A stretch of 64,000 bases of DNA, taken from Blepharisma japonicum. Lineage: Eukaryota; Ciliophora; Heterotrichea; Heterotrichida; Blepharismidae. This document shows positions 15,652 to 61,787 of this stretch, one piece after another; position 1 is the first letter of the stretch; the number at the start of each line of letters is the position of its first letter. The stretch is from positions 1 to 64,000 of the forward strand of contig CATKHK010000061.1 in the NCBI GenBank assembly GCA_949751835.1, written 5' to 3'. The notes beneath the pieces are model-generated. The model was given only the letters and a program-made list of their open reading frames with translations. It had not been told where the DNA came from and ran no database searches. A program made the translations under genes and the position numbers.

Positions 15652-16938
15652 ATGTCTTATCATAAAAAGAAAATTGATGATTCTCAGCAGCATCGAAAAT
15701 TTCCTACAAAGCCCTTGGTTAAAAGAAAGTATCTTAATGAACTCGAATCATCTGAATCTGACAGCACGGCAGACATTCACCCGTCCGAAAGACCTCTTAA
15801 AGCGAGACTTGAGTCTTTTAAAGCAAGAACAATATGGACTTTTTTTATGTTTGGAGGATTCTTACTAGTTGTAGCTGCAGGTCATCTGTATTGTTGTTTA
15901 TTAGTACTTTTGGCAAATACTTTTATATATAAAGAAATTTTATCAATCAAAAGAAATGAGCAGAGGGATTCAAAGCTTCCTTTCTTTTATGTAATAAACT
16001 GATACTTTTTTATTCTTACAGAATTGTGCACAACCTCAATCTTACTTAAAGAACGGATTTTGCTATTAGGAGGCATAATAATTGAGCTTTTATACCAGTA
16101 TCATTATGTAACTTTTTTCTCTCTTTATGTTCTAGGAATTGTATTATTTGTGATTTCACTGAGGAAAGGGTCATATAAATATCAGTTTATGATATTTGCA
16201 TGAACCCATATAACTTGCTTGTTAGTAGTGACACAAAGCACAACAATTCTTATGAATATTTACACTGGATTAATTTGGTTTTTACTCCCTGCCCTGCTAG
16301 TAGTGGTAAATGATTGTTTTTCTTACATTTTCGGAGTATTTTTCGGAAGAACCCAACTTATAAAAGTAGTTCCTGACAAAACTCTAGAAGGTTTTATAGG
16401 AGGCTTAATTTCTACAATAATTTCAGCTTATATCGTATTTATTATTTAGCTTTCCCATGCCTTGGCTCAATATGATTATTTCTTATGTCCTCAGCCTGAA
16501 ATAATTTTGACGCCTTTTACTAGTCTAGCATGCAATTCTGAAGATATTTTGATGAAAAAAGAAAGAATTTTGCCTTGGGTGTTTCAATACATTGGCTTAA
16601 GCACTTTTAATGCTTCATCTCTAGAACTCCATGCAATGGTCCTAGGTTTTTTCGCTGGATTTATTGCACCTTTCGGAGGATTTTTCGCATCTGGAGTTAA
16701 GAGAGCGTTTAATTTAAAAGCATTTGGAGATTCTATACCAGGACATGGAGGAATTACTGACAGAATGGACTGCCAAATTATGATGGGAATGTTTACTTTC
16801 GTGTGGATACATTCTATTGTTTTGAAAAAACCGCCGTCAATTACAAGTGTGATGGTGCAAGTTATGAGTATGGAGCATAATGATCAAGTGCATTTGCTAG
16901 AACAATTGAAAGAAGCCTTGGAAAATAGAAATAACTAG
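15652..16938 (+). CDS. CDP-diacylglycerol synthase (phosphatidate cytidylyltransferase)
   Basis: The spliced product is 423 residues, with one 15-nt intron (16435-16449) and TGA codons at 16000-16002 and 16201-16203 read as Trp. Multiple membrane helices follow a polar N-terminal tail of about 60 residues. The middle holds NDCFSYIFGVFFGRTQL and PDKTLEGFIGG, and the C-terminal part holds the family signature SGVKRAF...GDSIPGHGGITDRMD. The enzyme makes CDP-diacylglycerol from CTP and phosphatidic acid in the ER, the precursor of phosphatidylinositol and cardiolipin. Within the signature the usual Lys-Asp pair reads Lys-Ala (A352), while the downstream DR.D motif (D365, D368) is intact. The family call is secure; full activity is not certain. 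Confidence 0.93.
16435..16449 (+). other. 15-nt intron in the CDP-diacylglycerol synthase gene
   Basis: Sequence GTATTTATTATTTAG. It sits at a codon boundary inside the membrane domain and ends with an in-frame TAG that splicing removes. Confidence 0.9.
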
Positions 16939-55737: not shown

Positions 55738-56316
55738 TTAAAGCTGCCCTGATTCTTTAATTTTTACGACTTTTGAAGGTTTTCCTGATCTGCTTCCAAA
55801 GCCTTCAATTCTTTGCACCACGTCATAACCTTCGAGGACCTCCCCAAATACCACATGTCTTCCATCAAGCCACGATGTTTCTACAGTAGTTATAAAAAAT
55901 TGAGAACCATTAGTATTTGGACCTGCGTTGGCCATAGATAATAAGCCAGGACCAGAATGCTTTAATGCGAAGTTTTCATCTGCAAATCTTTTTCCATAAA
56001 TTGACTCCCCTCCTGTACCATCAAAATTCGTAAAATCTCCTCCTTGAATCATAAATTGTTGGATGATCCTATGGAAAGTGCTACCTTTATAGCTGAGAGC
56101 AACGCCATCTGAATTCTTTCCGTTTTCTCCTGTGCATAATGCTCTGAAATTTTCTACTGTTTTTGGCACAACTTTTCCATATAAGCCCATCACAATTCGG
56201 CCTAAATCTTCATCGTCAATGCTTATATCAAAGTAAACTTTATGAGTTATCTCTGCATCCTCGTGAACTCTGCTGAATGCAATTAGTAACAGGCATGAAA
56301 ATATAAGCAACTTCAT
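55738..56316 (-). CDS. Secreted or ER cyclophilin (peptidyl-prolyl isomerase)
   Basis: A 192-residue protein with a signal peptide ([15 protein letters not shown]) and a complete cyclophilin domain. Active-site blocks are [15 protein letters not shown] (Arg, Phe, Gln), [17 protein letters not shown] and [10 protein letters not shown] with the cyclosporin-contacting Trp and the His. There is no KDEL-type C-terminal signal (it ends ESGQL), so it may be secreted or held in the ER by other means. Cyclophilin B-type enzymes help fold secretory proteins. Confidence 0.95.
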
Positions 56317-56549
56317 CTTATAATTATAGAAGATATTAATTTTTAAAATAATTTAAGCTAGTAACGAAGTGTAATTAATTTATTGAAGAAATATATAAGA
56401 AATAATTATTATTTTTGAATGAATAAGTAAAAGCGATAGATAAAAAAAATGAGTTTTTATTAGTATGAAACCACTATGATAAAAGAATCAAATCGTAATA
56501 AAATTTTGAAATCTAAAGAAAACACTTAGGTATCATTCTTTATAAATAA

Positions 56550-57944: not shown

Positions 57945-60900
57945 ATGCCACGCACAGAGAAGATCGCAAGAAATCTCAAACGTTTGGCTGATGAAGCTAA
58001 AGATAAGCAAGCGCTACTTGAAAAGCATCCTGAGTACTTTAGATTGGACCATCCAGACCAAGCTCAAATCCACCAAGACTGCCAATCTCTCCACAAGAAA
58101 CTATCTCTTTTCCAAGAGCAAGATTTAAAAAACGCTCTTGAGCTCCTCTTAACTTTTTACTGCAAAAGTGGCTCAATTTCTTACATTTCTGGCCTCCACG
58201 AAATCCTTGCACCCTTTTTTGTGCTCCGATTCACGACGTTAAAAACTGTATACGGTGCATTTTCAGCTTTCATTGACAAAATGATGCCAAGACTATTTAC
58301 CAAAGATTCATCTATTAGTTACTCATATAAAATTTTTCAACGATTATTACTTTATCATGACCCTTTGCTTTCTAACACCTTACAATCCACCTTGCCTAAC
58401 AACTCGTCAATTATCGAAAAATGGTTTTATACATGTATGTCAGCATGCTTGGATATTTCACAGCTACTTGAGTTCTGGGAATTGTGCTTGACTGAAAATA
58501 ATCCAGTTTTTCCCTATTATTTTGCTATAGCTCTACTGATGAAAAATAGAGATTTGTTAACGAAAAAACATAAAAAGAAAATTAACCTAGAAATTCATAT
58601 AGCAGATAATGATGAATTAACAGCAATCATAGAAGATGCTCAAGTGCTACAATCTTCAACCCCAAATTTTTTTAATAGGCTTATTAAAAAGCTTACAATC
58701 GAAAAAGAATTGCCAAGCTCTTTAGATGCGTATTCTCTAGAAAATACTCAAATTTTACCAATTTCCGCAAAAGAGGTAAGGAAGCCTAAGCCAGGATTTT
58801 TTGTGATTGATGTTAGAAGACATAAATATTATGAGCAAGGCCATTTCCCACAAAGCTACAACCTCTCAGTAGATCTCCATATATCAACTGGTAAGAATTC
58901 TAATTAGTACAGAGGAACTATGAAGTGTGCTTTCTGGATTTTCCGCTTATTACCACAACAAAAACAGCACTGCTTGCCATTTTGCATTTACATCAGGCCC
59001 ATCTCAAAAAGAGTTTTTATATGCAAGCACCTTAAGTCTAGATGTCGTTCGAAGAGGGATTGAAAGGGTAAGTTTCATAGTGAATGGGATAGATGACGAT
59101 CCATCTCATGATGCAAGTTCTTGTGTCCGCTGCAAGCTAAACAAGAATCTAATCGAAATAGGAAAAGAAGGAGGAAATCGACCAAAAAAAATATTGAGCG
59201 CTATGTGGCAGAATTATTTGATGGATGATCATTTCGACAAAGCTCCTGTTCAAACAACAGATGGTCAGAAGTCTACAAGCAGATTAAACGATATTTCTCC
59301 GAAATCTTCTGAAAGACTTGTAGAAAATTCAGAATTAACGGTCCATGAAGCTGTAAAATTTATGTGGACTTCAAATTTGCCTGTAGCTGAGGATTGGTTT
59401 CAGAGGAATTTAGAGCAAGACCCAAGATGCGCAATTCATTATGCTGAAGCTGGATTTTTGAAAGCAGTCATTTTAGGAGATAATCAGTCAAAAGAAGCAG
59501 TGATTGAAAGACTGGATAATGCTGAAATCATTGCTGAAAAATTTGTAAAAAAATGGGAAACAGAAGGCAACAAGGTTTTGGAAACAAAAGGAACAATGCT
59601 AAGTCCTAATGAAGCAATGAAAATTATTAAAGCAGCTCAAAACCTCAGACTTGCATTAGTCGTCAAAGCTGAAGCGACTTTATTCAAATCAGGCAACCAA
59701 ATACTTAAAAATAAACTGAGTTTGGGTTCTATGAATTTTAGGAGAGCTTGGAAAATTTATCAAAAAGCTAATAAAATTGCAGAAGCGCAAAAATGGGTAG
59801 AAAAGCAGTATTTTTCACCTGAAGAAATCAAAGGGTTGCAGACGCAAATTGAAGGAGATATCAATAATTTTACCCAATTTGGAGAAGGGGTTATTTGTTT
59901 AGGACTTTCAATGGCTCCTAAAACTATGTCTAAGCTTGCCAATGTGATAATAGGATTAGATGGAGACCAAAGTAGAGGGTTAAAAATTTTATATGACTGC
60001 ATCAACTCTAAAAAGGGAGTTAGAGTGCCTTTAGCGTTGATGTTTGTGTTATTTTGGCTTTTAATCTACATCCCAGAATTCATACCAGGTAAGCATGAGC
60101 GCTATCGTGAAGCTCATGACCTAATAAGATTTGCTTTGCATTATCTCCCTCAAAGCCCTTATTTTTATTGGCTGGAGAGCTATATGAATCAGCGCCAAGG
60201 AAATTTAGAAAGAGGTTTAAAATTATTAAATAGGGTGATAGCATATTCAGGAAGAACAGGAATTGATGAAAACCCAGGGAGATTGTCCTTTGAAAGAGGC
60301 TGGGTTCTATTCTTGTGTCAAGATTGAGAATCAGCAAGGCAATGCTTCGAAACATCAATTGAAAAAGCAAGTGACACCCCTTTCACACATTTGCTATTAG
60401 GTATTTCTTATTGCATGCTAAATGAGCTGCAGCTTGCTGAAGACACTTTAGAAAGTATTGCTTCATATAATAAAGAGTCAAACTCAATTGAAGAAAAATG
60501 AATTCATAAAAGGGCATCAAGCTACTTAGGGAGAAGGTGGTTTCAGCTGTTTCCTTTTGAAATTTCTTATGTCACCGACTATTTACAAGGCCTGAAGTAT
60601 GATTGACTGGAGTCTTCTTACGATTATCTCACCTCAATTGACATTGAAGATTCTGAAGAAAAGGATGAAATTGTTATAAGCATGCTTCTTCAAGGCGCAA
60701 TCCTTAGACACCTCGGAAGATTAAGAGAAGCTGTCTTAATTCTTGAAGCAGGCATCAAACTCGAACAAGACGTAAAAAAAGAAATATGAGTAGTTCCCCA
60801 CATCTATTACGAACTAGGCATCGTTTATGTCAAAAGCCGAGACTGGACTACCTCTTCTGCTTATATTCGCAAAGCAAAAAGCTTCAAAAGAAGCTACGAG

Positions 60901-60981
60901 TTTAAAGCTTCTCTGAGTTTCAAATTGAACGCTACTTTAGAGCTTATACTACAAGAAGAAAATAAGGAGTTTAAGAAGTAA
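57945..60981 (+). CDS. TBC1D23-like TBC/rhodanese protein fused to a TTC39/IML2-like TPR region
   Basis: A spliced protein of 1,004 residues, with a 22-nt intron at 58891-58912 and TGA codons as Trp. Residues 1-210 resemble the TBC domain of TBC1D23 (SYISGLHEILAPFFVLRF, then LLEFWELCL-like helices), but without the catalytic Arg and Gln fingers. Residues about 283-360 are a rhodanese-like domain (GFFVIDVRRHKYYEQGHFPQ) that continues after the intron (CHFAFTSGPSQKEF). From about residue 455 the TTC39/IML2-type helical repeats begin (HEAVKFMWTSNLPVAEDWFQ, YWLESYMNQRQGNLERGLKL) and run to the end. TBC1D23 tethers endosome-derived vesicles at the Golgi; IML2-type proteins are linked to lipid-droplet inclusion clearance in yeast. 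The fusion is supported by one continuous second exon. Confidence 0.75.
58891..58912 (+). other. 22-nt intron in the TBC-rhodanese-TTC39 gene
   Basis: Sequence GTAAGAATTCTAATTAGTACAG (as positions 58891-58912; starts GTAAG, ends TACAG). A 17-nt cut ending at the internal TAG would not restore the frame; the 22-nt cut does, and joins the two halves of the rhodanese-like domain. Confidence 0.65.
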
Positions 60982-61005: not shown

Positions 61006-61347
61006 TTATGATGTAAATTTGGTGACTGCTTTAGTTCCTTCACTTACAGCGTGTTTAGCAAGTTCTCCAGGGAGAATAAGTCTGACTGAGGTTTGAACTT
61101 CTCTGCTGCTAAGGGTTCTCTTCTTTTCGTATCTCACGAGCTTGCTTGCTTCAAAGCAGACTCTTTCGAAAATATCGTTGATGAATGAGTTCATGATGCT
61201 CATTGATCTCTTGGAGATTCCAATATCTGGGTGGACTTGTTTTAAGACTCTGTAGATGTAGAGTGCGAAAGTCTCTGATCTCTTCTTTCCTTTCTTCTTG
61301 TCTACGCTTTTGGCGGCTGATTCTCCTTTCTTAATATCTTTAACCAT
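61006..61347 (-). CDS. Histone H2B
   Basis: A 113-residue H2B from the Met at 61345-61347; an ATG five codons upstream (61360-61362) is possible but gives an unusual N-terminus. The histone fold is complete: [36 protein letters not shown] and the [17 protein letters not shown] helix. The N-terminal tail is short and Lys-rich. H2B pairs with H2A in the nucleosome core. No H2A gene is adjacent. It ends 24 bases from the stop of the TBC fusion gene on the other strand. Confidence 0.96.
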
Positions 61348-61362
61348 TTTATGATATTGCAA

Positions 61363-61787
61363 GTTGCATTTTTCAAGAATTTATATACAAAAATAATCCC
61401 AAAAATGGATTTTGATTGGCTGATTTTTCATATCTATTTAGATATGGATAATAAAATTTTATAATGGAAATTATTTGCCAAGTAGGAAAATGCGAAATTT
61501 AGAGCTTATGCATTCATTGTTCTTTAATTGATTAAAAATTTATCAGTTTTAGAATATTTTAACATCAATTTTTTATGAAATTAATTATCATTTGCTAATT
61601 AATAGATTCATCAAACTTCATTGAAACGCTGATAAAATTTTAAAATTTGATTGATTTTATATATATTTAACCTGAATGATAGCGTTATTATGCCTGAAAA
61701 ATAAAAATTAAATTAATTTATAGAACTCTTTCTTTTTCCATTTTCCCACATATTTAATAGCGCTGTTTACTTTTGATTTTTAAAGTG
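61363..61787. other. AT-rich intergenic region, nothing recognised
   Basis: No open frame or RNA gene was seen. It contains the H2B promoter and the 3' flank of the saposin-like gene. Confidence 0.55.

Follow-up and report, generated by a model that had tools for sequence, protein, structure and literature searches.

A predicted Blepharisma japonicum protein joins a TBC1D23-like TBC-rhodanese head to a TTC39/IML2-like repeat region

TTC39/IML2 proteins are widespread and poorly understood, and little is known of their molecular role. To our knowledge TTC39 and Iml2 otherwise occur as stand-alone proteins, and a locus of Blepharisma japonicum raises the question of whether a single gene there joins such a protein to the TBC and rhodanese domains of TBC1D23, and what the product might do. 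The gene lies within a stretch of 64,000 nucleotides (the window) on contig C61 of a genome searched over 45.2 Mb in 224 contigs. It runs on the + strand from an ATG at 57945 to a TAA at 60979-60981; the preliminary description had given its limits as 57945-60981, and both the start and the stop codon are found exactly there. Two exons in different frames are linked by an intron to give a joined product of 1004 aa. Exon 1 (57945-58890) is open from the ATG and carries the N-terminus, the TBC domain and the first half of the rhodanese-like domain, while exon 2 (58913-60981), likewise an open frame, carries the end of the rhodanese-like domain, a linker, the whole TTC39/IML2 region and the TAA. 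The adjoining genes, both on the - strand, look by eye like histone H2B (61006-61380) and a cyclophilin-type peptidyl-prolyl isomerase (55740-56320).

The C-terminal part of the joined protein is assigned by Pfam. Iml2-TPR_39 (PF10300) matches at 1.3e-24 over aa 473-916 (59383-60714, within a TTC39/IML2-like TPR region of 59341-60978), and the alignment covers profile positions 14-467 of 467; at 87.2 bits against a curated cut-off of 22.2 this is a near-full-length match to the profile of TTC39 and yeast Iml2, from which the protein differs in that TBC and rhodanese domains precede the repeat region. The preliminary description had allowed for a C-terminal part that fails to match IML2 profiles, which is not what was found. 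At the other end, RabGAP-TBC (PF00566) spans aa 16-203 (57990-58553) at 7.3e-22, and at 4.3e-23 for exon 1. Of the three Pfam domains proposed for the protein, these two were recovered, and the third, Rhodanese, stayed below its cut-off in the window protein at 0.038, the better value of two paralogues (the second is described below) being 0.00035. The rhodanese-like domain (about aa 282-376, 58788-59094, split by the intron) is assigned mainly because a two-paralogue profile aligns across both halves of the domain in a TBC1D23 structure. That structure (6jl7) is the sole PDB match of the profile at E<=0.01 (3.4e-32, 114 bits), and the alignment extends from the TBC domain almost to the rhodanese end. 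Searched alone against the PDB at E<=1, the N-terminal half of the window protein finds the same TBC1D23 chain at 2.7e-18 by phmmer, with TBC1D17 (0.015) and TBC1D22B (0.11) far behind. AlphaFold2 models of the two halves of the window protein as single sequences had mean pLDDT values of 43 and 39, too poor for use. The proposal of a TBC1D23-like TBC-rhodanese half fused to a TTC39/IML2 half is thus supported by Pfam and by the paralogue.

What the fused proteins lack is the third part of TBC1D23. Its C-terminal PH-like domain (TBC1D23_C, PF19430) matches neither fused protein at E<=0.1, and the TTC39 region stands in place of this vesicle-capture domain. A search of the genome with PF19430 returned one 17-bit match, under the cut-off, in a frame that resembles a protein kinase by eye.

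The join between the two halves can be read within a single exon. Exon 2 has no stop anywhere in the second rhodanese half, the linker or the TTC39 region, which agrees with the earlier claim that it holds the rhodanese end and the whole TTC39 region without a break, and part of this stretch is open even by the standard code. Under that code the frame is open from 58924 to 60327, a span that takes in the last part of the rhodanese-like domain, the linker and the greater part of the TTC39 region, so that the join depends neither on the genetic code nor on the intron. The linker (aa 377-458, 59095-59340) is in frame and of low conservation, the paralogues agreeing at 20 of 73 aligned positions. 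Comparison of the paralogues also reveals an HD-x3-C-x2-C motif 3' of the rhodanese domain (aa 381-389, 59107-59133). An H..C..C motif after the rhodanese domain is common to all four TBC-rhodanese proteins read in this genome, and its residues are possibly metal-binding.

Five in-frame TGA codons of the fused gene are read as Trp. This reading is supported because the paralogue shows TGG (four codons) or TGA (one) opposite all five; conversely, of the five TGA codons of the paralogue two stand opposite TGG, one opposite TGA, and the remaining two opposite an Arg and a Tyr codon. For the related Blepharisma stoltei, part of the published genome description gives UGA as Trp and introns of mainly 15 and 16 bp (PMC9942806). 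The predicted intron of the window gene is longer, a GT-AG intron of 22 nt (58891-58912, + strand) that links the two frames from the donor at 58891, and its counterpart in the paralogue is 21 nt long (L015 3169-3189), with 18 nt also possible by eye. Other GT-AG pairs at the window site, among those listed, would remove 39 nt from 58869, 24 nt from 58891 or 19 nt from 58907; the last also links the frames but would delete the EELW codons common to the paralogue. Motif-like ends that would give shorter introns (17 and 16 nt) miss the frame by one in both fused genes; introns of 16 and 15 nt would keep it, at the price of unusual ends. The choice among these introns alters the protein by only a few residues at that point. 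Elsewhere in the window AT-rich introns of 15 nt (GTA...AG) can be recognized by eye, for example at 16435, 17385, 44057 and 44502 on the + strand, and three more were seen by eye in the related genes C37 and C51 described below. At 22 and 21 (or 18) nt, the introns predicted for the fused genes depart from the 15-nt pattern. A scan of the window gave 110 intron clusters, among whose length counts 15 nt does not stand out; the intron size is therefore not proved by the scan by itself.

The second fused gene lies on contig C35 (L015 2196-5336). It is 47% identical to the window gene over the full length, has the same domain order, and carries its intron at the same codon, which argues that the fusion predates an old duplication. 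Between the two copies pN is lower than pS in the TBC (0.33 versus 0.76), rhodanese (0.33 versus 0.81) and TTC39 (0.34 versus 0.70) regions, values that gauge constraint only coarsely because changes at synonymous sites have reached or nearly reached saturation. That same saturation argues for an old duplication and for a still older fusion. Third codon positions account for the largest share of the differences, 128 of 262 in the TBC region and 317 of 682 in the TTC39 region. By these comparisons the fused genes are under amino-acid constraint in all three regions, and the comparison of the copies shows that the fusion is a maintained protein and not an accident of assembly.

Two explanations that would make the fusion less than this can be set against the same evidence. 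Two adjoining genes might have been joined in assembly by mistake, or read as one because a stop, a splice site or a frameshift was overlooked; such an error would fit with the 22 nt of the frame-linking intron, introns of 15-16 nt being the usual ones in the Blepharisma stoltei account cited above (PMC9942806), and with the 15-nt length of the introns recognized by eye in this genome. The 47% identical gene on another contig, with the same arrangement and intron position, speaks against it, as does the rhodanese-TTC39 join, whose position in exon 2 is clear of the intron and whose frame stays open under the standard code; a joining error is accordingly most improbable. Two separate transcripts are also unlikely, because the divergent paralogue has the same arrangement. 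Alternatively, the pair could be decaying toward pseudogenes, the loss of catalytic residues from both the TBC and the rhodanese domain (see below) being a sign of that loss. Against decay, both copies keep full open frames under TGA as Trp, third positions differ most, and pN is less than half of pS in the TBC, rhodanese and TTC39 regions; moreover, human TBC1D23 itself functions without GAP activity, according to excerpts of PMC7274447. We regard decay, too, as very improbable.

The loss of catalytic residues is seen by alignment, with the finger, cysteine, contact and pocket residues taken from part of PMC7274447. The arginine-finger position (IxxDxxR; 58086-58088, + strand) is Ser48 in the window protein, Gln in the paralogue and Gln88 in human TBC1D23, and the glutamine-finger position (YxQ; 58188-58190) is Ser82, Ser and Thr124, respectively. 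Both GAP fingers are therefore absent from both fused copies, as they are from human TBC1D23 (6jl7, 6jm5, 8qqf), with which the copies also share the order of TBC domain and then rhodanese; an active RabGAP would be expected to retain them. As a control, six other TBC loci of this genome (six of 15 non-fused TBC rows, some of which are pieces of one gene, with C37 included) have the arginine finger in five of the five that cover it and the glutamine finger in six of six. The alignment took the place of a regular-expression scan for the TBC motifs, which matched the window gene alone. The active-site cysteine of the rhodanese domain (human Cys399; 58984-58986) is Ala340 in the window protein and Ala in the paralogue, a loss that sets the fused copies apart from TBC1D23 and is at odds with an active rhodanese or Cdc25-type enzyme. 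Judged from these positions, the head consists of a TBC domain that has lost its finger residues and a rhodanese domain that has lost its active-site cysteine.

Among ten residues named for the contact between the TBC and rhodanese domains of the human protein, both copies retain four (Tyr177, Pro287, Phe290 and His397), a single copy retains three (Ser289, Leu318 and Ser321), and three are changed in both (L173 to R/K, E324 to L/L and Y426 to R/R). The golgin pocket mapped from human TBC1D23 is mostly different in the fused copies: of ten mapped residues one, Glu425, is identical in both and Glu179 is identical in one (D/E), while the others read I236 A/V, I237 L/C, V239 M/S, L275 I/I, L278 D/E, Y281 V/A, Y282 L/L and Y426 R/R, some of them swaps to other hydrophobic residues, and E396 falls in an insert. 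Golgin binding by the head would be possible, but the mapped pocket residues do not support it.

The fused pair is not the sole TBC1D23-like pair in this genome, since two unfused TBC-rhodanese genes are present, C37 (L029 2914-4746, 600 aa) and C51 (L030 1039-2883, 609 aa). They share the TBC domain, the rhodanese domain and the H..C..C motif with the fused pair, to which they align by hhalign over 353 columns at 1.4e-21. They differ from it in their length of about 600 aa, in having no Iml2 match, and in GAP fingers that are intact, by alignment in C37 and by eye in C51. Their joint profile finds TBC1D23 in the PDB at 84 bits, along with seven other PDB sequences, all of them TBC proteins. 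In a tree of TBC domains (10 rows, the human chain partial, the branches long) TBC1D23 and the fused pair stand apart from seven other rows with support of 98/96, and C37 and C51 fall among those seven. With their intact fingers, the unfused proteins may represent an active variant of TBC1D23. A cluster of the form C-x-C-x4-C-x2-C is conserved ahead of the rhodanese core in both unfused proteins.

The tails of the unfused pair bear on what the fused pair may have exchanged. A profile of the second exons of C37 and C51 matches TBC1D23 C-terminal structures weakly and at the right place (8qqf at 0.0086, 6jm5 at 0.014); of the two searched singly against the PDB, one matched 8qqf at 0.98 and the other did not match it at E<=1. 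With the full-length profile of the pair, the TBC1D23 C-terminal structures went unmatched at E<=0.01, and Pfam gave no PF19430 match for the unfused proteins at E<=10. The tail of C37 and C51 thus weakly resembles the C-terminal domain of TBC1D23, and a swap of tails is plausible for that reason. The idea that the genome is wholly without this C-terminal domain was dropped after these weak matches.

The TTC39 region also occurs behind a different head. A third IML2 gene, C23 (L016 2457-4853, - strand), encodes 798 aa with a PH domain (7.9e-7) followed by Iml2-TPR_39 (1.5e-21); at E<=0.1 the protein matches neither TBC nor rhodanese, and it aligns with the fused pair over 474 columns at E 1.9e-19. 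As in the fused proteins, a domain that may target membranes comes before the TTC39 region; here that head is a PH domain. In viral and prokaryote contig collections, none of 122 and 382 pattern stretches proved a relative by tblastn at E<=1e-3.

Three of the four partner families searched for are encoded in the genome, namely GRIP, with three of five matches above the cut-off, strumpellin (WASH) and FAM91 (2.2e-46). The GRIP proteins are encoded on contigs C1, C4, C46 and C103. No match came for the remaining family, FAM21-type CAP-ZIP_m, in a search that is uninformative because no control matched either. A coiled-coil-like frame of 1346 aa on contig C1 (L027, 916 onwards, + strand) has a GRIP-like end just below the cut-off. 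It begins MFNRWLSTIAP, which we take to resemble the Met-Phe start of golgin-97/245.

What, then, could the fused protein do? According to parts of PMC7274447 and PMC11093223, golgin-97/245 is the docking site in animals for the N-terminal half of TBC1D23, and vesicles are captured by the C-terminal domain of TBC1D23 by way of FAM21 and the tails of cargo; FAM91A1 and WDR11 work with it, as stated in an excerpt of PMC5807400. The reading that we prefer, at slightly under an even chance, is of one protein that is a catalytically dead tethering adaptor of the TBC1D23 type, its capture domain swapped for TTC39. In its favor count the architecture common to both copies, TBC1D23 as the sole PDB match of their profile, fingers lost here and kept in the other TBC loci read, the retained interdomain contacts, the three partner families, the constraint on both halves and the plausible swap of tails; against it stand the divergent golgin pocket and the three contact residues altered in both copies. 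The dead TBC-rhodanese head would serve as a docking platform, modelled on TBC1D23, most likely on golgins of the TGN or on another coiled-coil tether, while the TTC39 solenoid would bind cargo or a protein of an organelle surface. The molecule would then bridge a tether on the TGN side to a class of carrier other than that served by the unfused TBC-rhodanese proteins, and we infer a tether whose cargo has changed, which might link vesicle tethering at the Golgi with an IML2 function. The main rival, only slightly less probable, is that the fusion is real and the head, with its function altered, serves just for structure or targeting, in a protein that works mainly as TTC39/IML2 and does so outside Golgi tethering, for example in lipid-droplet-linked clearance of protein inclusions or in sterol handling. 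Most golgin-pocket residues differ and three of the ten interdomain residues are changed in both copies, which favors such a role, as does the PH-TTC39 gene, by which TTC39 seems to accept different heads. In yeast, according to part of PMC10301655, Iml2 connects lipid droplets with inclusions: it binds proteins of the droplets, and inclusions are not cleared properly unless it is present. A role centered on the tail sits less well with the head being as constrained as the tail (pN 0.33 versus 0.34), which argues that the head is a working module of some kind.

Among the open-literature matches listed, no description of the fusion was found, although it may carry an uncommented annotation elsewhere, and two papers that name both TBC1D23 and TTC39 look, from excerpts, like gene-list studies. 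As judged from the two copies, the domains are known, their arrangement is unfamiliar, and it is old and maintained in this genome. If the fused protein is indeed a dead tethering adaptor, the tether could be modular, an ordinary TBC-rhodanese protein having been kept while a swap of the capture domain made a second tether for another carrier or organelle; we consider this history rather unlikely. Were it so, the vesicle-capture half of a golgin adaptor would be shown to be exchangeable in evolution. The fusion would also be a Rosetta-stone clue that TTC39/IML2 works with TBC1D23 in the endosome-to-Golgi traffic of other eukaryotes, humans included, and its long retention behind a catalytically dead tethering head would give a concrete hypothesis on the site of action of TTC39/IML2 proteins.
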